Below are positions 849-55,458 of a stretch of 64,000 bases of DNA, piece by piece. This DNA comes from Candidatus Hydrogenedentota bacterium. Lineage in GTDB: Bacteria > Hydrogenedentota > Hydrogenedentia > Hydrogenedentales > SLHB01. The translations under genes and the position numbers were made by a program. The stretch's first letter is position 1. Every line of letters starts with the position of its first letter. The stretch lies in assembly GCA_016215105.1 (NCBI GenBank), contig JACRLJ010000024.1, positions 1 to 64,000 of the forward strand. Direction: 5' to 3'. The notes under the pieces are model-generated. The model ran no database searches, was not told the origin of the DNA, and saw nothing but the letters and a program-made list of their open reading frames with translations.

Positions 849-1799
849 TTACTTGCTGGGTTGCGTTGGTGCTGCTAGCGATTTGATGTAGGCGATAAGT
901 TCTCGAATTTCTTCTTCGCTGACCTGTCCCTCAAAGGTTGGCATCAGGAGCGGATATCCAAAGACCTGCTTGGCGTTCGGATAAAGGATGGACTCGCGGA
1001 GATAGTCATCGTCGGCCGTGACGGTCTGGCCATTCTGAAGCTTCACGGCGGCTCCGGCCATACCAGCCAGTTTCGGGCCACGCGGGGTGTCCCCCGACAA
1101 GTGGCACGACACGCAGCCGAGCTTTTGGAAGAGCTGCTCGCCGGCCATCGATGGCGTCAATCCGGTTGCCCCGCCGCGCAGCCAATTCTCATAGTCTTCG
1201 GGTTTCATGGCGACCACGCGTCCCACCATGCCGGAGTGTTCCGTGCCGCAGTATTGCGCGCAGAAAATGTGATACTCACCGGGCACAGTCGCTCGGAACC
1301 ATTGCTGCGTGTACTTACCCGGCACCACGTCGGCCTTGGTGCGGAACTCGGGGATGAAGAAGTCGTGGATTACGTCCTGGGAAGTCATGGTCAGTTTGAC
1401 GTTGCGGCCGACCGGCACGTGCAATTCGTTTATCTCACGTTGACCTTCCGGATGCTGAATCTTCCACATCCATTGCTTTCCGACGACGAATATCTCCATC
1501 GAATCCGCCGGCGGCTGCGTCACGTGGAAGTAGAACAAGGTAGCCCACACGAACATCGCCAGCGCCATGATCGTCGGGACGATGGTCCAGGTAAGCTCGA
1601 GGGCATTGTTGTCTGGCGAGGCGAGCGTGCGGTCGGCCTTGGAGCCTTTGCGATACTTGATTCCAAAGTACGCCAGCACCAGCAACACGGCGATGAAGAA
1701 GAACACACTCAGCCCCGTGAGCACGAAGTACATGAGGTCCATGTGCCACGCGTATGAGGAGGCCTGCTTCGGAAATAGTGGAAAGTTCCAGATGCTCAT
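849..1799 (-). CDS. ctaC: Cytochrome c oxidase subunit II with C-terminal cytochrome c domain
   Basis: CuA motif region ([15 protein letters not shown]) followed by CVSCH heme motif; adjacent to ctaD. Confidence 0.95.
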
Positions 1800-1853
1800 G
1801 CGTCTTTAGGCTGCCTGTTGAATGCGGTTGACTGCGTATGTCAGTTTCACGAC

Positions 1854-2717
1854 TTATTGCCGTCCCAGTGGTACAACGCCCGCAAAGTCCATAGGCGGCC
1901 TCTGCCGGCGTGAACGTATAATCGTCATCAGGACTAGTGTGGCCAGAACCATGACCATGCCCGCGCCGATCAAGCGCAGAACACCCATAATGTAAACACC
2001 GTACTTGCCCGTCACGGGGTCGTAGTGGTAGCAAAGCAAGGACAACTTCTCTGCAACCGTTCCGATCTTGCCCTCGCCGGCTTCCAACAAGGCAAGCTTC
2101 AGGGTACCCGCGTAGTAGTCAATCCCCATGAGATAACGGGAGACCTTTCCCGACGGAGTGATCACCATTATTCCGCTGGCGTGGGCATACTGCTTGGTCG
2201 CCTCGTCGTATACGTAGTGGAACCCGACGCTGTCCGCCAGTGCGCTGATGGCGTCCTGTTTTCCGGTGAGGAAATGCCAGCCGTCGGCCCCACCGCCACG
2301 CTTGTAGTTGTCGAGATGTGTCTTCTTTTTCGCAGCGGCCAGTTCTGCGGTGTCATTGGGATTTATGCTGACGGTCAACACCGTGTACTCGTTGCCCATG
2401 CCGAACGACAGGGCATTAAACGCGTCCAGTGAACTGCGGAGGACCTCGGTGCAAAGCATCGGGCACTCGTAGTAAACAAGAGTTAGTACTACCGGCTTGG
2501 CGCCAAAGTAATCTCGCAAACGAACGGCCTTCCCATCCTCATCAGTGAATTCGAGGTCGAGCGGAATTTGATCGCCGAGTTTTTGATCGATCCGGATATC
2601 GCTATACGGGTTCGGCGCCTTCATTTGCGCTTGCGCGGCGCCGTGGCCTAAGCCTAAGGCAAGCGCCGCGAGGAGGGCCATCACGCCACGGCGGAAAACT
2701 GTGATGCGAGATATCAT
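1854..2717 (-). CDS. SCO1/SenC family copper chaperone
   Basis: YYECPMLCTEV CxxxC motif, signal peptide, position in oxidase operon. Confidence 0.88.
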   Translation of the reverse strand: MISRITVFRRGVMALLAALALGLGHGAAQAQMKAPNPYSDIRIDQKLGDQIPLDLEFTDEDGKAVRLRDYFGAKPVVLTLVYYECPMLCTEVLRSSLDAFNALSFGMGNEYTVLTVSINPNDTAELAAAKKKTHLDNYKRGGGADGWHFLTGKQDAISALADSVGFHYVYDEATKQYAHASGIMVITPSGKVSRYLMGIDYYAGTLKLALLEAGEGKIGTVAEKLSLLCYHYDPVTGKYGVYIMGVLRLIGAGMVMVLATLVLMTIIRSRRQRPPMDFAGVVPLGRQ

Positions 2718-3226
2718 TCGGCGGCCTTTGCCGGCTGGACCGGCGTCAGCGATTGGACGGCCGTTGGGTTCGATTGAGACGCGGGAAGCGGCCAGTACGG
2801 CAGCATCTTGGTATTGGCCGCCTTTTCAGCGACGATATCCATAGCACGGCCAATGGGTAACCGGACGACCCCCTGGTTATTCTCCTTGCGTTCTACCCAG
2901 CCTGCGCTGTTCAAGATTCTGTCTTCGTTATCCTTCATGGATTGAAGGTCACTCTGTTCGTTCTGCTGCAGCAGCGGGGCGGCCGGAATGTGGCGCCCTT
3001 CCTGAACCATAAGCGGGTTGGCTTCGCCAAGCGCCGCATCAGTCTTGGCTTTCTGCGCCTTGAGGTAGCCCAGCATCCATACCATGAGCACCATCGTAAC
3101 GACGATGAGCGCCCAAATGACGCTGATGTTCCAGACCAGCGCGGGGATATGCACGTCACGCGGGTCGTAGCCCAGTTCGACGATTTCAGGAGTGGCGTTG
3201 TCTGAGCCGTGTGTTCCGTTATGCAT
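2714..3226 (-). CDS. Small membrane protein of the ACIII/oxidase operon, unknown function
   Basis: One TM segment, overlaps neighbours by a few bp, same strand within operon. Confidence 0.7.
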   Translation of the reverse strand: MHNGTHGSDNATPEIVELGYDPRDVHIPALVWNISVIWALIVVTMVLMVWMLGYLKAQKAKTDAALGEANPLMVQEGRHIPAAPLLQQNEQSDLQSMKDNEDRILNSAGWVERKENNQGVVRLPIGRAMDIVAEKAANTKMLPYWPLPASQSNPTAVQSLTPVQPAKAAE

Positions 3227-4460
3227 GGTCTAGCGCCTCGGTTTCGTGGTGATGGTCGTGCGCGAACGCCTCGTCCCGCCGCGGGTCGAAGGCCGTTACC
3301 AGCGGGCGCTGCGTGAGTTGCTTCACAAAGTAGGTCAACCAAATTCCGCCGATTCCAGCCAACACCGCCAAGGTGATCGGGACCTCGACCGCGCTGCCAA
3401 AGATGTGATCGTGGTTGTCGCGAAAGGCGGGTCCGAGCACCCACAAAAGATCGATAATCCGTACCGCAAGGATATAGAACGCAATGGTCCGCAATGTCGC
3501 CGGCACACGCTTCACGCCGCGCATCAACAGGATGAAGAACGGCACGAAGAAATGGAAAACGATTAAGATCGTAAAGACGCCCTTGAGTTCCGGACCCGTG
3601 CGGTGCATGTAGTACTTTATTTCTTCGGGCAGGTTTCCGGACCACGTGATTAGGAATTGCGCAAAGGACATATAGGCCCACAAAATGGTGAAGGCCAGCA
3701 TCAGCTTGCCGAGATCATGGTAGCGGTCCGGTTTCGCGTAGCTTGACAGCGGAGGCTTCTCGGCGAGCAGCGAGAGAATAATCACCGTGAAACACATCGA
3801 CGACAGGCCCTGCCCAACGCAGAACAAGAACCCATAGATTGTGGAAAACCACTCCGGTTCCAGAGACATGCCCCAGTCGGTCATGGCGAACGTCATCGTA
3901 AACACATAAAGCACGATGCCGGGCGCAGCCACCCAGCGGTACTTCAGGCTGATCCGGGGATCTCGCGTCGTGTCCATATCCTTGGACCACCTATTCAGGA
4001 AATACGTCAGAGTCAGCCAAATCCCGAAGTAGATAAACGCGCGAATAGTGAAGAACGCCGGATTCAAGTACATCAGCTTGTGCGATACGTGGTAATTGAT
4101 ACCATGCCACGCCAAGCTTTCCACACCGCCCCACCATGGGTATAGCTGCGGACTGCCAATGAGGAGGTACGGCAGGAACAATAGGGCCAATAGCGGGAGG
4201 GTCCGGCTGCTCGCTTCAAGAATTCGCTGTGTGACGAATCCCCAGCGGCCTTCCACCATGTGGTGTACCATCAGCCACGCCAATGAGCCGAGCGCCAGCC
4301 CAAACCAGAAGAGGAACGCAACCAGGTACGATTGAAAGAACAGTCTGGCGCCGCCCGACGCGAGGGCCATCACCAGGCCGAGCAGCAGCGATGCGACGCC
4401 CACCTTCCAACCATTTCGGCCGAGTTGCTTCAATCTCGGGTGAATATCGATTTCACTCAT
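3219..4460 (-). CDS. actF: Alternative complex III membrane subunit ActF
   Basis: Multi-TM protein in act order; start chosen at MSEIDIHPRLK, overlapping the actE stop. Confidence 0.85.
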   Translation of the reverse strand: MSEIDIHPRLKQLGRNGWKVGVASLLLGLVMALASGGARLFFQSYLVAFLFWFGLALGSLAWLMVHHMVEGRWGFVTQRILEASSRTLPLLALLFLPYLLIGSPQLYPWWGGVESLAWHGINYHVSHKLMYLNPAFFTIRAFIYFGIWLTLTYFLNRWSKDMDTTRDPRISLKYRWVAAPGIVLYVFTMTFAMTDWGMSLEPEWFSTIYGFLFCVGQGLSSMCFTVIILSLLAEKPPLSSYAKPDRYHDLGKLMLAFTILWAYMSFAQFLITWSGNLPEEIKYYMHRTGPELKGVFTILIVFHFFVPFFILLMRGVKRVPATLRTIAFYILAVRIIDLLWVLGPAFRDNHDHIFGSAVEVPITLAVLAGIGGIWLTYFVKQLTQRPLVTAFDPRRDEAFAHDHHHETEALDHA

Positions 4461-5130
4461 GGTGTGCGCTGCCTTCGGTGGTCTTGGCTTCTGATTTGTC
4501 GAGGAGCGCCAAACCCTGCACCGGCTGATCAAGGAGCGCAAGGTCTTGCGGAGCCATATCGGTCTCTGGCGCGAACTGACTGTACTGCAGGGTGCGAATA
4601 TACGCGGCAATCGCCCAGCGGTCCTTCACCGGAACGCGCGAGGCGTAGCTGTACATGGTTCCGAATCCATTGGTCATTACATCAAAGAAATAGCCCACCG
4701 GTACCGCGCGCAGGCGGTCGGTGTGATACGAAGGCGGGCGCTTGAATCCGCGCTGCACGATCATGCCGTTCCCATCGCCGAGACGGCCGTGGCAGGGTGT
4801 GCAGTAGATCTCGAAGCGCTGTTGTCCGCGCAGGATTAGTTCGCGCGTCACGGGTAGCTCCTCAGGAAACGAATTCGCCAGTTGGCCGTCCACTTTGCCA
4901 GTGTAAAGCAGCGTATCGCGCGCCCCGTATCCGGCAGGTACGACACCTGGCACTTGGGGCCTGGAAGCCAATCCGTCAGCAAAAAACGTGCTCTTCGCGA
5001 GCGGCTTGTACTTTGCCTGATTCCACATGTCCTGATGACAGCCGGACGTCAAGACGAGGACTAACGCCAGGGTGAAAAACGCCGCTACGCGATTCACGGC
5101 TCGGGCAATGCTGTGCTGCTGCGTTGTCAT
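4453..5130 (-). CDS. actE: Alternative complex III monoheme cytochrome c subunit ActE
   Basis: Lipoprotein-like signal (LTSGC), CTPCH heme motif, operon position. Confidence 0.87.
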   Translation of the reverse strand: MTTQQHSIARAVNRVAAFFTLALVLVLTSGCHQDMWNQAKYKPLAKSTFFADGLASRPQVPGVVPAGYGARDTLLYTGKVDGQLANSFPEELPVTRELILRGQQRFEIYCTPCHGRLGDGNGMIVQRGFKRPPSYHTDRLRAVPVGYFFDVMTNGFGTMYSYASRVPVKDRWAIAAYIRTLQYSQFAPETDMAPQDLALLDQPVQGLALLDKSEAKTTEGSAHHE

Positions 5131-5655
5131 TGCGCCACCGCCTCGACGTGCGTCGCGCCCAGTCCGCTCAATAGGGCGCATGTCGTTTCCATGTCAAACT
5201 TGGGATCGCTTGTTTCAACGGAGAGGAAGAACCCGTCGCTGGTGGCATGTTTTGCGAACCGCTCCGAGTTGAACACGGGATGATACGGTTTCGGAAGGCC
5301 GTTCAGAAGTATCATTCCGAACACCGCCGCGAAGCTGGCAAAAAGCACTGTGAGCTCGAACGTGATCGGGATGAACGCCGGCCAGCTAAAGAAGGGGCGG
5401 CCGCCAATATTGTACGGATAGTAGACGGCCGAAGCCCAGTACTGAAATCCAAATGCGGTGCAGGCCCCCGTGAGGCCGCCGCAAAGAATGATTAGAGGAA
5501 GTCGGGTCTTCTTGAACCCAATCGCTTCCGCGAGACCGTCCACGGGAAAAGGCGCAAACGCATCGATCTGCTTGTAGCCCTCGTCATAGACTTTTTGCGC
5601 GGCCACGAGGAGGTCTTCCGGGGACGTAAATTCCGCCACGATACCGAGCTGCCCC
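5127..5655 (-). pseudogene. actD: ActD (DUF3341) lacking its own N-terminus; fused out of frame to actC
   Basis: Conserved [44 protein letters not shown]..., but upstream in-frame sequence is an antiframe of actC. Confidence 0.8.
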
Positions 5656-6877
5656 ACGACGAGGGAAGGAAATCCGCGTGCAAACTGGTGACCACGATCA
5701 CGTAGCGTTCGAGCCACATCCCAATGTTCACAATGATTGAGATGATGAAGAGCACGATCGGGTTGTTGCGTACCCAGTGAATCCACAGGAATTGCGGAGT
5801 AACGATATTGCACAGGACAAGAGCCCAGTACGCTGGCCAGTAGGGACCGGTCATGCGGTTGTAGATCATGAACTTCTCATAGGGATTGGCGCTGTACCAC
5901 GCGTAAAAGGCCTCCATGATGTACCCGTATCCGACTATCAGGCCCGTGGCAAGCATGACTTTGGCCATCACATCAAGGTGGCGCTGGGTGATAAAATCCT
6001 CCAACGCATAAATCTTGCGAACCGGAATCGTAAGCGTGAGCACCATCGCGAAACCGGAATAGATCGCGCCCGCGACGAAATAGGGGGGAAATATCGTCGT
6101 GTGCCAGCCCGGAATGATGCCGACCGAGAAGTCCAAGCTTACGATACTGTGTACGGATACGACGAGCGGCGTCGCGAGGCCGGCGAGAATGAGCGAGGCC
6201 GTCTCGTAGCGGAACCAGTGCCGGGCGGAGCCGCGCCACCCGAGCGCGAAGAAACCGTAGGCCCATTGGCCGACTTTGTTGCGGGCCTTGTCGCGCAGCG
6301 TGGCAAAGTCCGGAATCAAGCCCACATACCAGAACAACAGCGACACCGTCGCATAGGTGCTCACCGCGAACACGTCCCACAACAGCGGGCTTCGGAAATT
6401 CGGCCACATGGTCAAGGTACCGGGGTACGGCAAGATGAAGTAGAACACCCAGGGCCGCCCAAGGTGCAGGATCGGGAACATGCCCGCGCACATGACCGCA
6501 AAAATGGTCATCGCTTCGGCGAAACGGTTAATCGACGTGCGCCACTGTTGATTGAGCAAGAGCAGGATCGCGGAAATCAACGTTCCGGCGTGGCCGATAC
6601 CGATCCACCAGACAAAGTTGATGATGGCCCAGCCCCAACCGACCGGAATGTTGACGCCCCAGATACCGATGCCTTTGTAGAACAGATAGATGACCGCCGT
6701 GTTCAGAATCATCACGCCGATAGCGCCGATGAGGATGCCGAACTTCCACGATTTCGGCTGGGGCTCCGTAACGACGATACCCGCGACCTTGTCGCTGATC
6801 GTCGTATAAGTGTGGCCCGGCGCAATTAACGGGATGCTCGGTTCGAGTGCTGCTACGTTGGTGTCATGCGGCGACAT
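5492..6877 (-). CDS. actC: NrfD-like ActC, C-terminus replaced by out-of-frame read of actD
   Basis: Typical ActC up to [22 protein letters not shown], then [15 protein letters not shown]... which is actD in the wrong frame. Confidence 0.85.
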
Positions 6878-9800
6878 CAGGCTTTTCCGCTTTCAAGTTC
6901 CGGGTTGGGATTCGTCACTTTCGCCAAATACGTGGTGCGCGGACGGGTGTTCAATTCGCCCAACAGCGCGTAGTTTCTCGGATTCGTCTTCAGTTTGGAC
7001 ACCCGGCTTTCCGGATCGGCGAGATTGCCAAACACAATGGCCGACGCTGGGCATACCGCCTGACACGCCGTAACAATCTCCCCATCCCGGATGGGCCGGT
7101 CTTCTTTCTTGGCGTCAATCCGGGCCTTGTTGATGCGCTGCACGCAGTATGTGCATTTTTCCATCACGCCGCGCGTGCGCACAGTTACATTGGGGTTTTT
7201 TTGAAGCTTGGTGCTCTCCCCTTCGAACTCGTCCCATTCGAGGAAGTTGTAGCGGCGCACTTTGTAGGGGCAGTTGTTCGAGCAATACCGCGTGCCGATG
7301 CAGCGGTTGTAGACCATGTCGTTGAGGCCTTCTTTGCTGTGGTTTGTCGCCGCAACGGGACAGACCACTTCGCACGGCGCGTTTTCGCAATGCATGCAGG
7401 GCACCGGTTGATGTACCGTGCCTTCGGGATTCTCCGGATCGCCTTTATAGTAGCGGTCCACCCGTATCCAGTGCATGACCCGGCGGCGAATCACCTGCTC
7501 TTTACCGACCACCGCGATGTTGTTCTCCGCCTGACATGCGATTGTGCATGCGCTGCAACCGGTACAGACATTCAGGTCAATGGCCATGCCCCACGCGTTG
7601 CCATCGTAGTTGTTGTCCTTAAGCCCCTGCGGAAAGAGGGTTACGTCCTTTTCGGGAGTCTCCGCCATTTCCTGGGCGAAGTCGGGATGCTCCTTGAATT
7701 CCTCGAGCGTCGCTTCCCGGATGATGGGGCGAGTGGTCAGCCCGTCGTTCATGTTGGCAATCGTTTGTGTCGTCGCCAGCTTGTAAGTCGCGCCAGTCTT
7801 GGTAATTGCCAAGTCCGATCCGAACCACGGCGCATCGGACGTTTGCAGCGCATACGCGTTGAACCCCGTCCCTTTTCCAACCTTGCCCGTCCGGCTGCGG
7901 CCATATCCCAAATACAGCGTCACGACTCCTTCGGGCTGAACCGGCATCACCCACACCGCCGCCTTAACGATTCGGCCTTTATAGGCAAGCTCGACAACGT
8001 CGTTCGTCGCCGCGCCTAGTTTCTGCGCCGTCCTCGGACTAATCAGGGCCGCATTGTCCCACACCAGTTTCGTCAGTGGCTTCGGAAGCTCCTGAAGCCA
8101 GGCATTGTTCGCGTAGAATCCGTCGCCGATGGTTGGATCGAGACGGAATACCACGTCCAACCCCGTTCCCGCGGGAGAGGGCGGGTTTGCGACAGCGGGT
8201 TGTTTCGAGAAATCAGCGGTGAGCTTGACCAGTTTGTCCGGGAACTTCGATTCAGCCAGGAAACCGTCGCTCAGCGTGGTTTTCCAATAGTGCTCAAAGT
8301 CGGGCGCGGTGGACTGAGACTTCCAGTAGTCGCGCACCAAGTCGTACATGGCCGCATTCGGCTGCCCATTGATCGCGGCAACCATTTCCAGACTCGACTT
8401 TCCGAAGTACAGAGGCGCGATCAAGGGCTGCACCACACTGATGGTACCGTCAAAAGCGCGGAGGTCACCCCATTGCTCGAGGTAATGCGTTTCCGGAATG
8501 TGCCAGTGGCACAGCCGCGACGTCTCGTCGTCATACAGGCTGAGATGCGTCCGAAACGCGACTTTATCCATCGCGCTCTCGAGCTTGAGATCGGCGGGCG
8601 CCGTGTACACCGGGTTGCCGCCCAGGATGATCAGGGTATCCACGCGGCCGGCTTCCATGTCACCCGCAAGCTCTTTGATCGAAGCAAGTTGATCGACCGG
8701 ATTCGCTTCGACGGGCGCAGTGTACGTCACCGTCGTTCCCGTGTTGCCCAGCGCCTGATTGATTGCGTGCGCCAACGCGTGCACGACCGCAGGCTGGTTG
8801 TCTCCGGGAATCACAACACTCGACTTGGGGTCTTTCTTAAGGTCGCGAACGACCGCATCGACCCACTTCTCGTGCGCCGGTTCGAGCGTCCCTGCGGCCA
8901 AGGCAATTCCCATCTTGCCGGCGATGGCCCGCGCGAAATGCTCAATCTGTCCCGGACGGACGCCCAAGCGGTGGTCGGCCATCGCTCCGGTATTGTTCGG
9001 AGTGCTTTCGACCGCATAGAGCCGGCTCATTTCGGGATGATCCGCGTTCGCGAGGCGTTTGGACGAAAAATCGTGTGTATACCGTACGGCGCCCGGCCCC
9101 GAACTAAGGAAGTCCGCGTCGAGCGACACGATCACGTTCGCCCGATCCAGGTGATACTGTGTGTCCGTGGCCTCGCCATACGCCATGACCGCGCCGGTTT
9201 TCGCGGAGTCCCGCGAGGCCGGCTGGTACTGATGCCACTTCGCCTTCGGCAGCGCCGTGAGCAAGGCTTTGATTTGGTTCGCTAACGCCGGTGAGGTGAC
9301 CGTTTCGGTCAGTATGCTGAGTCCCGCGCCCTGCTTGAGACGAGCCGCATCTACCCGCCCGCTCAGGGCGCCGTAGAACGAATCCCAAATGCTCTCCCGT
9401 CCAGAGTTCAGGATCGTGCTGGAACGATCCGGATCGTACATTGTCAGGATGGACGCTTGCGCAAAAAGATCGGTCGCACCCAAGCTCGCAGGGTGTGTCG
9501 GGTGCCCCTCGACTTTGGTTGGACGTCCCATGAAACTGGTCACCAACGCCCCCATAGCGTATCCGGATGAACTGTACGCTGTCGCATACGGCAGCGCCGT
9601 CCCGGGAATCACGTCTTCGGGAGCCTTCACGTACGGGACGATCTTCTCGTCCGGCTGGCGCGAACACGCGGCCAGCCCGCCCAGGCTGAGCGAGGCGCCC
9701 ATCAGCTTGAGGAAATTGCGGCGGCTAACGTCTTCGGGCCATACCGACGCCTGCGCCGGAAACTCGCGGTGCAGAAACTCGGTGAACTCTTCGGTTTCGG

Positions 9801-9909
9801 CCAACTCATCCAGGCTGCGCCAATAGCGCGGGCTCTGTCCCGCGGCCAGTTTGGCCCGAATGGCCTCAAAATCGATTGGTTTCTGTTCGTCGAGGAACTC
9901 GATGCTCAT
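6877..9909 (-). CDS. actB: Alternative complex III subunit ActB (molybdopterin-like and Fe-S domains, Tat motif)
   Basis: [12 protein letters not shown] Tat motif; ferredoxin-type Cys clusters ([54 protein letters not shown]). Confidence 0.93.
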
Positions 9910-10562
9910 CGGTGGCACACGGAACAGTTCGTGAGCTGTTCCACCTTCACATGGTTGTTCTTCACCAGTTCAAGACCCTTGGCCGACTGGTCCGCGGGCG
10001 GTTGCCATTGCATGTTGAACACTTCGCTGGGCGGACGCAGGAACTGCTCGGGCGCGCGGTGGCACTGCAAACACCACCCCATGCGCAAAGTCTGCCCCTT
10101 GTGCGTGAGCGCCATCTCGTCCACTTGACCATGGCACGTCACGCAGCCCACGCCCTTATTCACGTGAATACTGTGGTTGAAATAGACGAAATCAGGAACG
10201 TCATTGACGCGCAACCATTCGAGCGGCTTCTGCGTCTTGAAGCTGGCGCGCACCGGTTCGAGCATCTTGGCGTTGGTCCAGATTTGGGAGTGGCAGGACA
10301 TGCAGGTCTCCGTGGGGGGGATTCCCGCGAAGGAGCTGGTTTCAACCGTGGTGTGGCAATAGCGGCAATCGATGCCTAGTCCTTTGACGTGATGCAAATG
10401 ACTGAACGGCACCACCTGTTGCTTGGCGACATCTTGTTGGGTAATGAACGGCGACAGCCACAGGCCCGTCGCCATCGTGCCTAGACCGCAAGCCCCCAGG
10501 ACGACAGCCGCAGCCAATACTTTGACCAGATCGTTGGCTTTCTTAGGGAAGATTTGGGCCAT
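9906..10562 (-). CDS. actA: Alternative complex III pentaheme cytochrome c ActA
   Basis: Five CxxCH motifs (CRYCH, CMSCH, CVTCH, CLQCH, CSVCH), N-terminal TM; start at MAQIFPKK. Confidence 0.93.
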   Translation of the reverse strand: MAQIFPKKANDLVKVLAAAVVLGACGLGTMATGLWLSPFITQQDVAKQQVVPFSHLHHVKGLGIDCRYCHTTVETSSFAGIPPTETCMSCHSQIWTNAKMLEPVRASFKTQKPLEWLRVNDVPDFVYFNHSIHVNKGVGCVTCHGQVDEMALTHKGQTLRMGWCLQCHRAPEQFLRPPSEVFNMQWQPPADQSAKGLELVKNNHVKVEQLTNCSVCHR

Positions 10563-11047
10563 CAGCGAACACCGTCCCCATGGCTCAGAGCCCGTTTTCC
10601 CCGCAATACCTCGGAGAAGCGCGGAACTGCTCCACAACGCGCGTCGTGGCGCTTTGGATACATGACACAACTGATCATGGCTCAACCTCTGGAATAATAG
10701 CTGCCGCGTCAACTGACCCCGCGAACGACTTGCCGCACGCGCCGCCGGATCAGGCTCACCATGCCAAGGACACGCTCACTCGCCGCGCTCCAAGTGCAAA
10801 GTAACGAACTTGACTTCGCTAATCGGCTTCGGGAACATCGCTCTATCCCGTGTCTATTTCCGTATTTACGGCGCAAATAGGCCTCCGAGAGAATTTGCGT
10901 GTTTATCCGCAAGACGCGCCCCATAGGGTCCCGTATAAAACCACAACACCACCCAGAGGTAAGTAACGATAATGACATGCGCAGGTGCCATTATCGCGCC
11001 GTAACCATTGCCTCGCGACCACGCAAAGCCGTATAGTTCCTCCCCGA

Positions 11048-32517: not shown

Positions 32518-32967
32518 CTACGTCAGCATCGTCTTGAGTTCGCTCATGAACTCGTTGAGATCCTTGAACTGGCGGTACACCGACGCGAACCGGACATACG
32601 CCACCTCGTCGAGTTTCTTGAGGCGGTCCATCACGGCCTCGCCGACGTGTACCGTCGAGATCTCGTGTTCGGTGGAGTTGAACAGGGTCCGTTCGACGTC
32701 GTCGATGAGCGCGTCGACCTGGTCGAGCGAGACGGGACGTTTCTCGACGGCTTTGAGGATGCCGCTCTTGAGTTTCCAGCGGTCGAAGGGTTCGCGCCGC
32801 CCGTCTTTCTTGATGACCATCTGCGCGACTTCTTCGATGCGTTCGTAGGTGGTAAAACGGCGCTCGCAATTCAAGCATTCGCGTCGGCGCCGGATCGCGT
32901 CACCTTCCTTCGAGGAACGTGAATCGACTACTCGGCCATCGGTACTGTTACAGAACGGACAGCGCAT
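32518..32967 (-). CDS. nrdR: Transcriptional repressor NrdR
   Basis: [43 protein letters not shown]. Confidence 0.97.
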
Positions 32968-33068: not shown

Positions 33069-33614
33069 TCAAGAGAAAAAAGATAGCGCGGTTTCGCCGT
33101 AGCGTTCGTGGCGGGTGTGCTGAAACCCGCCAAGGTCGTCCGGGACAGGCGTCCGCTCCGCATGCTCCACGACGATAATCCCCTCCGGCGCAAGGAGTTC
33201 CGCTTCGTGGATGTGGCGCAGCAAGCTGCCGTATTCGAGGAAGGAAAAAGGCGGGTCGGCGAAGATCACATCGTATCCCGTCCGCTTTTCGCCGAGTTTC
33301 TTGAGACCGCGCGGTAGTATCAGCTTCCACAATTCCGCGCTGTCGCCGAGGTGCGTCGCTTCAAGATTGAGGCGAACGGTTTGCAGCGAACGCGGGTCGG
33401 CGTCGACAAAGGTGCAGGACGCGGCGCCGCGGCTGAGGGCCTCGATACCGTTGGCGCCCGTGCCCGCAAACAGATCGAGAAACTGGGCGTCTTCAAGATA
33501 GGGGCCAAGAATGCTAAACAGCGACTCCCGGACCCGATCCAAGGTGGGTCTGACATGCGAGCCTTTGGGGGCCAAAAGACGATGTCCTTTTGCTTCACCG
33601 GCGATGACGCGCAT
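33069..33614 (-). CDS. rsmD: 16S rRNA (guanine966-N2)-methyltransferase RsmD
   Basis: MRVIAGEAKGHRLLAPKG...RPTLDRVRESLFSILG...FLDLFAGTGANGIEALSRGA...DVIFADPPF. Confidence 0.94.
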   Translation of the reverse strand: MRVIAGEAKGHRLLAPKGSHVRPTLDRVRESLFSILGPYLEDAQFLDLFAGTGANGIEALSRGAASCTFVDADPRSLQTVRLNLEATHLGDSAELWKLILPRGLKKLGEKRTGYDVIFADPPFSFLEYGSLLRHIHEAELLAPEGIIVVEHAERTPVPDDLGGFQHTRHERYGETALSFFS

Positions 33615-33783
33615 TGTAAATCCCTCCTCTGGCGGCGAATCAGCCCGAAACTACCACGGGCTGAGCGTCCTACAGCATAGCGTACTCCCGATAGGGGCCA
33701 CGATCAAGAAGCTATGCCTCGTTTTCCGATTTGTCAACCGAAAAACGAATCGCGGCAGAATTTCTTCAGCCGCTCGCCGCGCA

Positions 33784-33911
33784 TGTGGATAACCGGTGTA
33801 TAACCTCTCCAAACCGTGTGGATAAACGCCTTGAGTTGTGGATGAACGCAAGATTTAAGTGAATTGCTTGGGGAAACGGGGTGAATAACAGCGTGGACAG
33901 TTTGTGGATAA
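33784..33911 (-). promoter_or_regulatory. Cluster of DnaA boxes (candidate oriC or DnaA-titration site)
   Basis: Perfect TTATCCACA (minus strand) at 33784-33792, 33817-33825 and 33903-33911; one-mismatch boxes to TTATNCACA at 33795-33803, 33837-33845, 33880-33888; all same orientation. Confidence 0.75.
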
Positions 33912-33919
33912 GTCCGTAG

Positions 33920-34327
33920 CTACGCCCGCCGGACCAGCGCGCGGGCGCCAATCACGAGGACTGCAACACCGGCCACCGCGACGGTTCCGGCTCCTGCCAG
34001 CGCCCGCCGGACCTGCTTGCTCGAAGGCAGACCCGTCCGGCACCAATGCGCAAAGTGTTCGCAGTTGTTGCGCACCACCCCATAGCGAGTTTCCCCGATG
34101 CGGCTGCTGGCGCGGCGTAGGATTTCTTCGGGGTCGTGCGCGCACGCGGACTTGACCGTCCTCACGACGCCGCCTTTCGCGAACTGGGCCATGGGCGTTC
34201 GCGCTACTGCCGCGTTGGTAAGGTTCTTGGGTTCGCCGGTGTAATGGATCACGGTTCCGTCACCACAATCAATGCCGTGGTGCCAGAAGCCGCGCCGTTT
34301 CACTCGAATATGATCGCCTCGCGCCAT
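33920..34327 (-). CDS. LRAT/NC-domain family protein
   Basis: HHGIDCGDGTVIHYTG and NNCEHFAHWC motifs, hydrophobic C-terminus. Confidence 0.8.
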   Translation of the reverse strand: MARGDHIRVKRRGFWHHGIDCGDGTVIHYTGEPKNLTNAAVARTPMAQFAKGGVVRTVKSACAHDPEEILRRASSRIGETRYGVVRNNCEHFAHWCRTGLPSSKQVRRALAGAGTVAVAGVAVLVIGARALVRRA

Positions 34328-34411
34328 GCTGTGTATCGCCTCCTGACTTCTTCCTATAGTATACCCCACCCGGCGCGAAGCGTCACGTCTGCGACGGGCG
34401 TCGGTGGTCCG

Positions 34412-39920: not shown

Positions 39921-40093
39921 ATAAAGGAACTCCCTGATTCCATGGCGCTTCACCGCGCCGCAGCCGCATGAATAGTATACCATGCGTTCAGCCGGACTGC
40001 TCTGTTTATGCTACAATTCGAAACCCACGGCGTTTCGTTGCGCCAACAGCGCGAGACGCCATTTGCGGAACGAGAACGCTAGGAGAGAGCGCT

Positions 40094-40464
40094 ATGGCCA
40101 AGACGCCGAAACCATTGGTGGGAATTATCATGGGGAGCAAGTCGGACTGGCAGGTCATGAGCCATGCCTCCGAGACGCTCTCACAGTTTGGTGTGCCGCA
40201 CGAATGCCGCGTGATCTCCGCGCACCGGAGATCGGCGTTCCCATGGAAAGCGCGTCGCTCAAAGGGCTGGATTCGCTGCTGTCCACGGTGCAAATGCCGG
40301 GCGGAATTCCCGTCGGAACGATGGGCATAGGAAAACCCGGCGCCATCAACGCGGCGCTGTTCGCGGTCGCCATTCTCAGCGCCGATCGTCCCGCGTTGCG
40401 CTCGAAACTGCGCGCCTTCCGCCTCGAACAAGCCGAAAAGATCGCCAAGGAAAAACTGCCCTAG
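40094..40464 (+). pseudogene. purE: N5-carboxyaminoimidazole ribonucleotide mutase PurE, internal deletion with frameshift
   Basis: N-part [37 protein letters not shown] and C-part [42 protein letters not shown] are in different frames with the middle missing. Confidence 0.88.
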
Positions 40465-40747: not shown

Positions 40748-41716
40748 TCATTTGCCCGCCGCCACTTTGTCGCGCCGTTCCTTCAACTCGCGCCAAGTCG
40801 TGAGCAGAATATGCTCGTCTTTCACCAGCTTCTTAAGAACCGGATCGCACATCGCGTTGAGATCACCCAGCCGCGTATCCGTCGAAGGGCTGATCAGAGG
40901 AAACTCCTCCGTGGGCCGGGTGCAGTGTACGATGATCTCCGTAATCCCCGGCTTAAGGTTCTTGAGCAGATCGGCGAAAAGCGCCGTCTTGTCTTGCGTC
41001 TTCCAATCGTACGTTTCCGCGAATATGTCGTCGATCACGGGCAGGCCCGCGTTCCAAATCTTCTCGCTGTACCCCTTGAGCGTCTGCACCGCGTCGGGAT
41101 TGCCCTTCGTCACCAGGGTCATGTGCCCGCCCACCGCCAGCACGGGCGTCTTCGTCTCCATCGCGACTTTGAGCATGCGCTCGAAGAATTCCTTGCTCGC
41201 GAACAATGTGCCCATGTGCGAATCCAGGTGCGTGATCGGCATGCCCATCGTTCGCGCGCGGTCAACTTGCGCGCGGATCTCTTTTTCCACCTCGTCGGGC
41301 GTGGCATGTTTCGTCACGAGATCGACATTGTCCCAAAGGCACCCTTCCTTATCGACAAGCCCCGGCACGGCAGGTTTGCCCGCCACGGGTCCCCAGCGAT
41401 ACAGGTCCCACTCCGACGTGAGCGTCAGGTGCAGCCCCGCGTCCACCTGCGGATGCTTTTCGAGATACCTCGCGAATTCTGGAACCCACGAGCACGGCGT
41501 CATCACGCTTACCGACGTGACCATGCCCTTTTCCAATCCCTCGATCGCGCCCGCGTTCGAGGAATGAGACATGCCCGCGTCATCGCAATGGAAGATGACC
41601 ACGCGGTCTCCGGGCTTCCAGCCCAATTTCTCGGCGTAGGTCTCGGCGCGCGCGCTGAATGGGAATAGCATCAGAACAAGGGCAAGAGCGGAGGATACTG
41701 AACGAGAGAATCGCAT
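40748..41716 (-). CDS. Exported ChbG/HpnK (YdjC)-like deacetylase
   Basis: VVIFHCDDAGMSHSSNAGAIEGLEKGMVTSVSVM...VDAGLHLTLTSEWD...THLDSHMGT; signal peptide. Confidence 0.87.
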   Translation of the reverse strand: MRFSRSVSSALALVLMLFPFSARAETYAEKLGWKPGDRVVIFHCDDAGMSHSSNAGAIEGLEKGMVTSVSVMTPCSWVPEFARYLEKHPQVDAGLHLTLTSEWDLYRWGPVAGKPAVPGLVDKEGCLWDNVDLVTKHATPDEVEKEIRAQVDRARTMGMPITHLDSHMGTLFASKEFFERMLKVAMETKTPVLAVGGHMTLVTKGNPDAVQTLKGYSEKIWNAGLPVIDDIFAETYDWKTQDKTALFADLLKNLKPGITEIIVHCTRPTEEFPLISPSTDTRLGDLNAMCDPVLKKLVKDEHILLTTWRELKERRDKVAAGK

Positions 41717-41953
41717 GGCAGGAGTTCCTTTACGACCGTGGTTGGACTGCAAAGCACACGGCTCAAAATCAGCCGCCGCCAGATAGTAAAGGAATTCAAA
41801 ACAATCCGCAACGGCAAGTCACGATACCGAATCCCACAGTCCACCCTTCCCCCTGGCTATAAGACTCGCCAATCCCGAAGCGAATGAGTGCGGTTAGGGT
41901 GGGGAATTGAGTGTCTGGAGCTGTCATTTCTTCACTTCGCTCATACTCCGAAA

Positions 41954-42574
41954 TCACGACGGATTCTTACCGCGCCGCTCGACTATCAACCTTCTTAGAG
42001 CAGCTTCCGTTGTCTCGCCCTTGCCCTGATGCGGTAAGGCGGCGGCCCCTTCAGGTATGATGTTTACGTAATGGCCGTCGTCCCATACCCAGAACTCTGG
42101 AGCGCCACCCCATATCGGTCCATAGAACTCGGTCCGTGAATCCCCAGCAAGATTGTATAACTTAACATCATCGCCCCTTTCCGCAGTGACGGTCACCAGC
42201 TTGATGAATTGAGGGCCGACGGGCTTAATCACTTCCAGCTTCTTGTAAATGCGCCCGTTCGAGTATTTGACGAGCAACTCGACGAGTATTTCATTCTCAC
42301 CATCCCCATCAATATCTCTAAATGAAATACTTTGCGACGGCTCGTCTTCCGTATCGACTGAATGGCTCACATGCCGATAGCCACGATAGCTTTCCGGTAC
42401 CGCATCCTTGGAAGGCGCAAAACAGATGTTCCCATGATCGTCCACATACTTGTAGGACTTGGTGGTGACCGCGCCTGCCTTTGGCCCTGCGCCTAAGCTT
42501 ATCAACGCCGACCAAACAAGCCCTATTGAAATGAGAGTTGCAGTGACGGTGACCGGTCTAGACTTCGAAAACAT
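41954..42574 (-). CDS. Hypothetical exported protein with DUF4124-like start
   Basis: KSYKYVDDHGNICFAPSKDAVPESYR; signal-like N-terminus. Confidence 0.5.
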   Translation of the reverse strand: MFSKSRPVTVTATLISIGLVWSALISLGAGPKAGAVTTKSYKYVDDHGNICFAPSKDAVPESYRGYRHVSHSVDTEDEPSQSISFRDIDGDGENEILVELLVKYSNGRIYKKLEVIKPVGPQFIKLVTVTAERGDDVKLYNLAGDSRTEFYGPIWGGAPEFWVWDDGHYVNIIPEGAAALPHQGKGETTEAALRRLIVERRGKNPS

Positions 42575-42614
42575 AGCCGCTAATCTCCCATTTGGTTTCG
42601 GAAATCTTTGTTTT

Positions 42615-42711
42615 CTAAGAGCGCCTAACAAGACGTTGTGTGAGCACTCCGGCGGCTGGGGACAGCCGCCCTCCCGTTCGCCCCGACCTGGGTTTTGTTA
42701 GAAGCTCTAAG
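42615..42711. repeat. TIR-bounded intergenic repeat, copy 1
   Basis: Ends agagcgcctaacaa / ttgttagaagctct; core 42650-42687 is 37/38 identical to 50655-50692. Confidence 0.75.
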
Positions 42712-43013
42712 AGTATACCTTCCCCAAGGCAAAAAGGATCGGCCAAACCTCGATGCGGTGGCGCGCGAATAGTTGGAACCTGCACGCCCTAGATCTTAGG
42801 GCACATGGCTTTTCCGAACTGACTGTCCTGCTACGGCTCAATACTACGCGGCGGCCACACATATTGACGAGGGGTCACGCGATCCTTGAGCGGTTCCGGT
42901 ATACGCCTAGTGGTACATGAAAGGGCTATTAGCTGACAATAGAGAAACTAGCGAGCTTGGGTCGCAGCACTTTCCCGATAGCCCGGCCTAATAACGGTCA
43001 ACGTACTCCGCCG

Positions 43014-43520
43014 CTACTCGCGGTCGTTGTTTGCGGCCTCCTCTTCCAAAGCCTGCTGGGCTTTCCGCCAGTACTCAGTATCTGGACTCGCACTTGATTG
43101 AAAGATCCCTGCCGCAAACTTGGAGAAATCCTCTAAGATGGAGAGTGGATCGTCCGGTTCGGGGCCAAATCGCTTTTGGCCTTCAGTACGTAGCGCTTTG
43201 TAGAAATAGACGGAAAGAAACACATCACGATCGGCAATCGATACTTTCTCATGAAGATTGTGGGCTAGGCGATTGCGAACCGTGTTCAATCGTAATAGAC
43301 CAGGCCTTAATTGGATTCCGATATAATCGTTCTCGCCAATGAGACCGACTTTTTGGACAAAAGTTAGGCGCGCAGCATCGACATCACCCAGCGCTGGATT
43401 CTTAGCCCTAATATGTTCCGTGAGGAAGTGTTCAACCACAAGGAGAGACCGCAAGACGCGGCCGATAGTATCTTGATCTTGTTCCCACGCAATTCTGAAG
43501 TCTTCACGGCGCTGTTCCAT
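43014..43520 (-). CDS. Hypothetical HEPN-like protein
   Basis: Helical protein with VRNRLAHN (Rx4H) motif; coding frame may extend upstream (EDEFFSAMEQ). Confidence 0.5.
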   Translation of the reverse strand: MEQRREDFRIAWEQDQDTIGRVLRSLLVVEHFLTEHIRAKNPALGDVDAARLTFVQKVGLIGENDYIGIQLRPGLLRLNTVRNRLAHNLHEKVSIADRDVFLSVYFYKALRTEGQKRFGPEPDDPLSILEDFSKFAAGIFQSSASPDTEYWRKAQQALEEEAANNDRE

Positions 43521-43945
43521 AGCCGAAAAAAATTCGTCTTCCCCCCATATTGCTCGAAAATTCTTGCAACTAGCCGTTCAGGTTGAAGTACCATACCTTA
43601 CCTCCAAAATAGGCCGCAGCATCCATTGAGGTTTTGCTCTGCCCTCCATGGCACAGAATCGTAGCACAACCCTGAGACCTCTTCACGGCGAACGAGAGCG
43701 TTTTTTGGGGGGCCTGTTGTTTACGCGCTAGTTCTCCAGCGTGTGCGGGAAACTACGCCCACGAGCTAGGGCGCGCCCTTCTGGCGCTGGCGGACTATTT
43801 AGCAGAGTTGGACAAAACCCTCCTCTCGTTAAGCAAGAATCGCGCTATGGCGATATGTGTCGTAGTTGGCAACTACTTCCCGACACCACGCGGCAACCCT
43901 TCGTACCCTGTGTTTTTGACGTTTAAGTTGTACATAGCGGGCGTT

Positions 43946-45688
43946 TCATTCTTTGTCTTTGAGCAGGGTGGCGAGGATGGATTGTTCGCGGGCGAGCAGC
44001 AGATTTCCTGTCGACTCGATGGTGGACCGGTAGGCCCAGATTGTTAGGAAGAGGACGATGAGGGAGGCGATGAGTCCGACGGGAGCGTAACGGAAGGCGG
44101 CGAACTCGGATGAGAGGGTGTTTGCGAGGGTGCATAGGCCGGATGGGATCATCAGGACCGGCAGGGCGAACATGGTAATGAGGCCTCCGATGAAGGCGCC
44201 GGGCTTGGCGCGCGCCGCTTGACCGGAAGCGCGTTGGAATCGGTATGGGCAGTAGACGGAAAGATAATTTCCGAGCAGGCAAAAGCTGAAATACAGTTGA
44301 ACGAATTGCGCGAGCGTGGTGGCGACGGCGGTCACGCCGGGCCTCAGGAAGTACATTACTACCGCCACGAGGATTAGGTAGGGAACGCCGACTAGCGGGA
44401 ACAACGCCAGGTTCTTGGCGAGAAAATACTTGTGCCGGGGCGTGGGTAAGAGCACCAGCGCCTGAAAGCCTTCCTGATCGGCGCCAAAATGGTTGCACAT
44501 GAACATCGAGAAACTGAGGAACGTGTACAACATGGCGCCGGCAAAAGCAAAGTCGCCGACCCAACTCAGGTTTTCGGTCGAGGGGTTCCGCAGAGCGAGC
44601 GGGAGTGCGAATAGTATCGGCATGAGCAGGGGCATCAGCATCTGCATTCGGATACGCGGGTGGCGGACCAGGGTAAGCCAACTGGCCAGGACGAGCGCGC
44701 CAGTGTCATTTTCGAGGAAAGGAATACTCTTTCCGGTGAAGGGGACACTGCCCGGCGCCGGGGCGTGATTCTTCTTTTTCTCTTTGGGCCGCCGCCGCAG
44801 CTTTCCGCCGGCGTAATGCCGAATCGTGGCGCGGTACCCGCTAGCGAGACCGAGTCCCGCGATGCCCGCCATACCCACGAAGCATCCCGCGACTACACCG
44901 TAGTTCCCGGCGCGCGCCGAGGCCAGACCCAACGGGAGCCAAGCCAGCGGAATAACGCCGTGCGCGAGCCGCGCCCAGTCGGTGGCGCCAGGGTTAGCGG
45001 GCGCGTCGGACGTGATGAGGGTGAACCAGCGGGGCGGGCCATGGCGGCCGCGCGCGGAGCCGTTTATTGCGGTCTGGGCAAGCAAGTTGGGCGCTTGCGA
45101 GATGATGATAAATACGATAGGAATTATGGTGAGGATAAGACGCCGGCGCCGCTTGTTTTCCATCAATGCGGCGAGCATGCCTTGCAGGTGATAGCTCCAG
45201 GCGGCGAGCATGAGGTAAAACGCCGCGGCCAGGAACAGGGCAGAGGCCATGCCCGCGCCGGCGCCAACGATGAGGCCCGCAGTCAGTCCGATGGCGCCGA
45301 GCGTATAGATAACCAGTGTGGGTGAGGACAGCGAGACCGCGAAATTGAGCGCGAAGACCATGCGCAACGATACGGGGAGATACAGCATCTTCTGAAAGTC
45401 GATGAGGTCCGCGCGTTGGAGCTCCATCAGCATGCCCATCAGCCATGCGCCCAGCACGACGAGCACGATGACGTCGCCGGAGAACATGAGCGCGCGCGGC
45501 GGCAAGTCCGGCAGCGCTTTCCAGCCGAGAAAGAAGCAGGCCACACCGGCGCCGACCGCCATTACGCCCAGAATGATCATGGTAAACACCGCGAGCGCGC
45601 CCGCGACTACACCCGCCGCGGAGCGCAGCCAGACGCGCTTGAGCAGCAGAATGCGCAGACCGATTAGCGTCTTGAGCTGCATCCACAT
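43946..45688 (-). CDS. ABC transporter permease
   Basis: Multi-TM protein, start overlaps stop of the adjacent ATPase gene. Confidence 0.8.
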   Translation of the reverse strand: MWMQLKTLIGLRILLLKRVWLRSAAGVVAGALAVFTMIILGVMAVGAGVACFFLGWKALPDLPPRALMFSGDVIVLVVLGAWLMGMLMELQRADLIDFQKMLYLPVSLRMVFALNFAVSLSSPTLVIYTLGAIGLTAGLIVGAGAGMASALFLAAAFYLMLAAWSYHLQGMLAALMENKRRRRLILTIIPIVFIIISQAPNLLAQTAINGSARGRHGPPRWFTLITSDAPANPGATDWARLAHGVIPLAWLPLGLASARAGNYGVVAGCFVGMAGIAGLGLASGYRATIRHYAGGKLRRRPKEKKKNHAPAPGSVPFTGKSIPFLENDTGALVLASWLTLVRHPRIRMQMLMPLLMPILFALPLALRNPSTENLSWVGDFAFAGAMLYTFLSFSMFMCNHFGADQEGFQALVLLPTPRHKYFLAKNLALFPLVGVPYLILVAVVMYFLRPGVTAVATTLAQFVQLYFSFCLLGNYLSVYCPYRFQRASGQAARAKPGAFIGGLITMFALPVLMIPSGLCTLANTLSSEFAAFRYAPVGLIASLIVLFLTIWAYRSTIESTGNLLLAREQSILATLLKDKE

Positions 45689-53649: not shown

Positions 53650-53726
53650 ACGCGCGGGCGCGGGAACGCCCATACCAGTCAGCGCACGTGGCGCCTGCGC
53701 GGCGCAGTTTTCATTGGGAGATGCGG

Positions 53727-55458
53727 ATGGCCGATGAACGCTATCTAGTCTTGGCGCGGAAGTGGCGTCCTCAGACCTTCGAGGATGTGATTGGCCAGGA
53801 ACACATCACCCGGACGCTGCAGAACGCGATCACGTCGGGGCGGGTCGGTCACGCGTTCCTATTCATTGGATCGCGCGGTATCGGCAAGACGACGACCGCG
53901 CGAATCCTATCCAAAGCGCTGAATTGCTCGTCCGCGAGCGGCCCCACCCCCACTCCCTGCGGCGCGTGCAGCAATTGCGCATCCATTGCGGCCGGAAACA
54001 ATATCGACGTGATCGAGATCGACGGCGCGTCAAATAACAGCGTGGACAACGTGCGCGAAATCCGCGAGCATGTGCGCATGGTCCCGTCGGGGTCGCGCTA
54101 CAAGATTTACATCATCGACGAGGTACACCAGCTATCCACGGGGGCGTTTAACGCCCTGCTCAAGACTCTGGAAGAGCCTCCGCCCCACGCCATTTTCATA
54201 TTGGCGACGACCGAAGCGTCGAAAATTCCGGCGACGATTGTATCGCGTTGCCAGCGCTACGATTTCCGGCGGGTGCCGCTGGGCCGGATTCAAGATTTGC
54301 TTCGGCGGATCCTGGTTGCCGAGGGTGTGACGTGCAGTGACGAGGCGTTGCACGCCATCGCGCGTTCCGCGGACGGCGGTATGCGCGACGCGGAGAGCAT
54401 TCTGGATCAGTTGCTCTCGTATTGTGGCGAGACGATCACATTTCAGGACGTGTTTGACGTGCTGGGGCTGGTGGACTGGCGCGTGTTGCATGAGCTATGC
54501 GACGCGGTGCTTTCTCAAGACATCGCCAAGCAACTGACCATCGTCGAGGATGTCGTCGCGAGCGGAAAAGACCTGTCGCAGTTCGTCGAGGACATACTGC
54601 GCTACTTCCGAAACCTGCTGGTCTGCAAGACAGCCGATGCGAAGAAACTCCTGGCGCTTCCCGATGACGAAATTCAGTCGATGCAGGCGCACGACCAATC
54701 TGATCCGGCTGGTGGAGCAATTCGCGGAGTTGTCGAAGGATTTTGATTCGCAACTGGCGCAACGCATCGCCTTGGAATCAATGCTCATCCGCCTGTCGAA
54801 GGTGTCGGTGGAATTCTCGCTGGACAGCGTACTGGAGAAACTGGTGGCGCTGGGACAGGGCGGGCTCGGTGCATCGTCCGGCGTGGTTGCAGCGCCGGCG
54901 CGCGATTTGTCCAGTTCGGTGCGTCAGCGTTCCGAAGCGCCCAAGGCCGCCGTGGTATCGGCGGCTCCCGGCGCGTCCGGCGCCGATACGCCCGCAGCGG
55001 CACCACGCAAGAGAAAGCCGGCTACTGAAAAGAACATGGCCGGCCTCTGGCAGCAGGTCAAGGGTATCATTTCGCAGGGTGGCGTCAATCTGAATTTGGG
55101 CCTCAACGCAGACCGCGCGAAGCCGGCGGCAATCGAAGGCGACACGCTGGTCTTGCGGATTCCGTCCGACCAGTCGAAGGCGCGGAGCTTCCTGGAAAAG
55201 CCGGAGCAGCGCGCGGCCATCGAGGCGGCGTTGGCCGAGCTTACGGACAACGTACGCACATTCCGCTGTGAGGCAGGCGCCGGCGCGGAACCCGAAGAAG
55301 CAGGCCCCGCGCAGTCCACGCTTCCGATATCGGGGCGCGTCGATCCGAACGCGGCCCGCGCCGCGCTTGATGACCCTCATGTGGCGCAGGTCGTGGACGT
55401 GTTCAAGGGGCGCATTGTGGACATCAAGAGCGAGTCGAAAGTCTCGCGCTCCGAGTAA
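53727..55458 (+). pseudogene. dnaX: DNA polymerase III subunit gamma/tau, frame disrupted near 54690-54705
   Basis: YLVLARKWRPQTFEDVIGQEHITRTLQNAI...HAFLFIGSRGIGKTTTARILSKALNC...; continuation NLIRLVEQFAELSKDFDSQLAQRIALESMLIRLS is in another frame. Confidence 0.9.

Follow-up and report, generated by a model that had tools for sequence, protein, structure and literature searches.

In Bacillus subtilis, clusters of DnaA boxes (DBCs) are located in intergenic regions outside oriC. As far as the account of this work in PMC5295017 goes (Okumura et al. 2012), deletion of all six leads to early initiation, and the DBCs therefore hold DnaA back. The E. coli sites datA, DARS1 and DARS2 are non-coding DnaA-box clusters situated away from oriC, and they modulate DnaA (PMC12371093). 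In the basal unwinding system (BUS), tandem DnaA boxes are combined with DnaA-trios (PMC8287927).

The locus described here is a cluster of DnaA boxes upstream of rsmD in a Candidatus Hydrogenedentota bacterium (GCA_016215105.1). It lies in the stretch of 64,000 nucleotides that was analysed, to be referred to as the window (positions 1 to 64,000 of contig JACRLJ010000024.1). Like the B. subtilis DBCs, the cluster consists of intergenic DnaA boxes outside the probable oriC. However, the DBCs are at other loci in another phylum, and the rsmD cluster has a conserved 11-bp doublet as its core and is known here from its sequence. The cluster also resembles datA, DARS1 and DARS2 as a non-coding group of DnaA boxes away from the probable oriC. 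The E. coli sites change the nucleotide state of DnaA with IHF or Fis, and the likeness carries no claim of sequence homology. As in the BUS, the rsmD doublet is made of tandem DnaA boxes a few bp apart, but runs of DnaA-trios do not adjoin it. Finally, the intergenic boxes, including a doublet of the same 11-bp type, are shared with the dnaN-adjacent oriC of related genomes. The boxes in both orientations, the AT-rich stretch, the skew minimum and the nearby parS of that oriC-like locus, between dnaN and pilB, are in contrast missing at rsmD.

DnaA boxes in the rsmD leader

The contig that holds the window (C89) has 83,780 bp, in an assembly of 6.68 Mb in 171 contigs that is 95% complete. The best named match of RsmD is from a Candidatus Hydrogenedentota MAG. 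The cluster is located between rsmD and an LRAT-domain gene (Table 1), as described in an earlier note on this DNA. The three perfect 9-mers of that description are present, with plus-strand letters TGTGGATAA corresponding to TTATCCACA on the minus strand, and all the boxes are indeed in a single orientation. Three other 9-mers had been counted as one-mismatch variants; one of them (33837) has a single mismatch, and the other two (33795 and 33880) have two mismatches each. The core of the cluster is a tandem doublet, TTATACACC-GG-TTATCCACA, with 11 bp from start to start (33784/33795), and the boxes at 33892 and 33903 form a second, weaker doublet. These boxes are matches to a pattern and would be bound by DnaA. 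The window is without dnaA, as had been stated, and this gene was found on contig C5.

Table 1. Positions of the DnaA boxes, flanking genes and origin-related features (window coordinates unless a contig or genome is named).
Feature	Position	Strand	Remarks
nrdR	32518..32967	-	ribonucleotide reductase repressor
rsmD	33069..33614	-	16S rRNA methyltransferase, PF03602
Leader	33615..33783	.	from cluster to rsmD; GC 0.556
Perfect DnaA box	33784..33792	-	TTATCCACA; rsmD-proximal half of conserved 11-bp doublet
DnaA-box-like	33795..33803	-	TTATACACC; 2 mismatches; other half of doublet
Perfect DnaA box	33817..33825	-	three steps of 11 bp (33 bp) away from 33784
One-mismatch DnaA box	33837..33845	-	TCATCCACA
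DnaA-box-like	33880..33888	-	TTATTCACC; 2 mismatches
Weak box-like	33892..33900	-	CTGTCCACG; 11 bp from 33903
Perfect DnaA box	33903..33911	-	TTATCCACA
LRAT-domain gene	33920..34369	-	PF04970; end just past cluster
dnaN, this genome	C85 8594-9697
dnaN-pilB gap, this genome	C85:9698-10458		L236
pilB, this genome	C85 ~10459 onward
Skew minimum, G006	-984 bp		relative to dnaN start
Skew minimum, G010	-956 bp		relative to dnaN start
Skew minimum, G034	-204 bp		relative to dnaN start
Skew minimum, G033	-1708 bp		relative to dnaN start
Skew minimum, G030	+588 bp		relative to dnaN start

Matches with at most one mismatch number 17 in the window, compared to 6.3 expected, and none of 100 shuffles reaches 17. 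There are 29 perfect boxes in the 6.68 Mb of the genome, and three are found together at this site alone, a uniqueness that refers to perfect boxes. Windows of 300 bp were scored with a box matrix and mismatch penalties made by hand, and background windows were drawn from the contigs retrieved for the analysis. The rsmD cluster has the top score (23.9) in ~857 kb of this genome's own DNA, followed by the two sides of dnaN (13.6 and 12.0) and dnaA (9.5); the contigs covered were picked partly for having boxes, and this ranking is therefore not a random-sample statistic. The score is also the highest among the rsmD loci of 50 genomes of the order, which are a part of all rsmD loci there.

A search of the segment 33615-33784 for an AT-rich unwinding element or DnaA-trios had been proposed, and neither was found. 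The GC content of the rsmD gap is 0.515, and no strong AT-rich element is present in 33615-33783, where the lowest 40-mer has a GC content of 0.375, compared to 0.25 in the dnaN-pilB gap of the same genome. In the set of rsmD loci scanned, DnaA-trio runs are not enriched beside the doublets. The core of a BUS origin, with three or more DnaA-trios no farther than 16 bp from the boxes, was found neither at rsmD nor at dnaN, with a trio definition stricter than the published NAN rule. As the trios are missing at both loci alike, they discriminate weakly between them. A scan of the region for promoters and terminators gave none near the cluster, and no Rfam family was matched in nine rsmD/dnaN loci.

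Three other parts of the window were noted by eye. A dnaX-like gene (DNA polymerase III gamma/tau; 53688-54746, plus strand) is 20 kb from the cluster. A purE-like sequence (39968-40464, plus strand) lacks its middle part and is split between two reading frames that overlap, which suggests a disrupted gene or a misassembly. The gene run at 849-10712 (minus strand) includes SCO1-like and cytochrome oxidase subunit II-like genes and is reminiscent of an operon for alternative complex III.

Conservation of the doublet upstream of rsmD

The relatives compared are at closest from other genera of the same family, and all the genomes used are drafts. The 11-bp doublet is observed upstream of rsmD, on the rsmD strand, in 25 of the 50 Hydrogenedentota genomes, and on the opposite strand in 2 of them. 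Each of the other spacings from 9 to 24 bp occurs upstream of rsmD in at most one of the 50, and simulated sequence gave no doublet. An alignment of 14 genomes, drawn from several families, has a mean identity of 30%, whereas the two boxes are invariant at most of their positions. The aligned relatives also have an AT-rich patch ~60 bp past the doublet and a degenerate AATTCACC box ~140 bp past it, and in many of them a TTGACA-like rsmD promoter is found near the start codon. The exact 11-bp spacing and the fixed orientation, kept in half of the 50 genomes, give good support to the prediction of a genuine DnaA-box cluster upstream of rsmD.

Conservation of the boxes next to rsmD, named as a check in the earlier note, is seen for the doublet, but the cluster is missing or weak in ~40-50% of the relatives. 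An essential oriC would be expected to be present throughout; the rsmD doublet is found in 25-27 of 50 genomes, compared to 29 of 30 for the cluster at dnaN. Its absence from about half of the relatives indicates a function that is dispensable or replaceable.

A pattern search of the relatives gave, among the matches listed, 31 doublets at rsmD, 28 at dnaN, 27 at dnaA and 52 elsewhere. DnaA-box doublets were also seen within ~100 bp of parS in three relatives (G033:C108:87032, G028:C199:3570 and G042:C35:29659).

The probable origin of the relatives

The densest box clusters of the relatives are located upstream of dnaN, in an AT-rich gap beside a pilB-like gene. The median cluster scores are 18.0 for dnaN, 10.1 for rsmD, 4.8 for dnaA and 2.9 for the background, and scores of at least 6 are reached by 97%, 62%, 47% and 10% of these loci, respectively. 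In ten relatives, the minimum of the cumulative GC skew was compared with the dnaN start, and in five of them the two are less than 2 kb apart (Table 1). The minimum is 3.9 kb away in G004, and farther away or uninformative in G003, G042, G037 and G021. No change in the sign of the skew was seen at rsmD in G003, G055, G061 and G037. The most telling of these is G003, where the skew is negative on either side of a strong rsmD cluster.

The distribution of parS follows dnaN. The two are on one contig in 12 genomes (G002, G003, G004, G006, G030, G033, G037, G042, G048, G054, G060 and G062), and parS shares a contig with dnaA in none. It is found together with rsmD in G004 and G042 only, both of which have dnaN on the same contig as well.

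Since skew, parS, boxes and AT-rich element agree there, the dnaN-pilB gap is the probable oriC of Hydrogenedentota. A literature search of limited reach found no paper on the replication origin of this phylum. A stronger cluster together with a skew switch elsewhere, which the earlier note had named as evidence against an origin at rsmD, is found at dnaN in the relatives, and an origin adjoining rsmD finds no support as a rule for the phylum.

The boxes in the dnaN-pilB gap of relatives (for example L228, L243 and L251) point both ways, and a doublet is found near -610; the gap also has an AT-rich stretch and the skew minimum. A CATGCTANCAAAG...GAAAAGCAAGC element is situated past this doublet, and CATGCTA and GAAAAGCAA are enriched there. 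A motif common to the dnaN and rsmD doublets was considered and rejected, as CATGCTA and GAAAAGCAA are not enriched past the rsmD doublet.

dnaN, dnaA and GC skew in this genome

The dnaN-pilB gap of this genome has a GC content of 0.417, compared to ~0.60 for the window. The conserved doublet is present at -604, with weak boxes, and the gap has the ATGCTAAC motif, as in the relatives. Two perfect boxes are located across dnaN from the gap. No change in the sign of the skew was detected at dnaN within the 9 kb left on C85 past this gene. There is no exact parS site in this genome; two-mismatch matches are no commoner than the control and are therefore uninformative.

On C89, the switch of the skew, at 43.7 kb, is 10 kb away from the rsmD cluster. 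The skew climbs from -0.047 to +0.072 near 44 kb, and none of the contigs of this genome that were tested has a larger rise. The rises on C15 and C149 are almost equal (+0.102 and +0.108) without such a cluster, and the C89 switch is therefore not counted as evidence for an origin. A skew minimum at the cluster had been proposed earlier as support for oriC; the minimum of this contig is 10 kb away. The skew within the window (43.7 kb) at first seemed to favor an origin, and was dropped as an origin sign given the similar switches on other contigs. The segment at the C89 skew minimum, 41700-43950 of the window, has a lower GC content (~0.47-0.55) and an ORF without a Pfam match, and is possibly an acquired island.

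The dnaA gene was rejected as the origin site because the skew keeps a single sign around it, in this genome as well as in G003 and G055. Ahead of dnaA, at a distance of ~300 bp and on the other strand, this genome (C5:64080-64099) and its relatives have a conserved doublet or triplet of DnaA boxes, followed by a TGTCAAG-containing stretch. These boxes are likely to serve autoregulation.

Function of the rsmD cluster

The cluster is probably a control locus outside the origin, situated in the rsmD-nrdR leader and bound by DnaA. Chromosome replication would most likely begin between dnaN and pilB, which are on another contig. A secondary DnaA control site is favored because the relatives place the origin beside dnaN, and the DnaA-titration locus, given as an alternative in the earlier note, is the best fit of the readings. 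Provided that the origin is at dnaN, its probable place in the relatives, the cluster lies outside the main origin in the way of the DBCs and datA. DnaA would bind the phased, same-strand boxes cooperatively and head to tail, beginning at the 11-bp doublet, and the helical phasing and the single strand of the boxes are consistent with such binding. By binding part of the DnaA pool, the boxes would titrate this initiator or reset it. DnaA at the cluster may also tune rsmD-nrdR transcription; the position ahead of these genes, with nrdR downstream of rsmD in 28 of 30 loci, leaves room for this control. The evidence at this cluster fits titration and transcription control alike. Against an extra-origin site are the score of the cluster, which exceeds that of dnaN, the skew minimum 10 kb away, and the lack of a sign change at dnaN in this genome.

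The nrd genes of E. coli are under DnaA control, and the cluster could similarly be a pure DnaA operator of rsmD-nrdR, which would couple dNTP supply or rRNA methylation with initiation but would not titrate DnaA. The cluster is upstream of these genes and oriented with them, and the doublet ahead of dnaA is as expected of DnaA-regulated genes. We nevertheless regard this reading as rather unlikely. The aligned relatives have a separate TTGACA-like promoter for rsmD, and the doublet is farther upstream by ~250-450 bp; half of the relatives keep rsmD-nrdR yet have no doublet. Moreover, the doublet is kept in G035, where a sulfatase gene takes the place of nrdR downstream, and G043 has no nrdR within 1.5 kb. 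These two genomes weaken nrdR as the cause of doublet conservation.

It is unlikely that the rsmD leader is the working oriC of this genome, with the origin moved or duplicated from dnaN and extra boxes accrued. An intergenic DnaA-box cluster, as an oriC should have, is present, and it is the strongest found in the genome and the top-scoring of all 50 rsmD loci. The large skew rise on C89 and the weak boxes at dnaN, without a skew switch, also point in this direction. However, the skew minimum is at some distance, with nearly equal rises on contigs that have no cluster, and the AT-rich element missing at rsmD is present in the dnaN-pilB gap (one 40-mer at 0.25), which has been kept with its doublet and motif. 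In G003, a strong rsmD cluster is not accompanied by a sign change. The reading of the cluster as the origin of this genome, put forward in the earlier note, is thus weakened; the higher score of rsmD over dnaN (23.9 versus 13.6), the C89 skew minimum at a distance of 10 kb and the constant sign of the skew in the 9 kb past dnaN stand in its favor. That the cluster became a working or second origin while the ancestral dnaN origin weakened is quite improbable; if true, a DnaA site that already existed outside the origin would have given rise to a relocated origin within a single phylum.

A chance grouping is hardly credible: such 9-mers do arise by chance, and single boxes are scattered over the genome, but three perfect boxes within 128 bp are expected anywhere in the genome with a probability of ~4e-6 (by arithmetic from the perfect-box density), and the conservation of the doublet across families, at one spacing and in one orientation, refutes it.

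Implications

For an uncultured phylum, these results provide a testable map of replication control, in which oriC is probably at dnaN-pilB, and the DnaA doublets of rsmD and dnaA are secondary. They also indicate that the densest DnaA-box cluster in a draft genome need not be the origin. The rsmD doublet keeps one exact spacing and orientation in half of the genomes examined, and bacteria distant from the model species would therefore seem to have off-origin control of the initiator as well.
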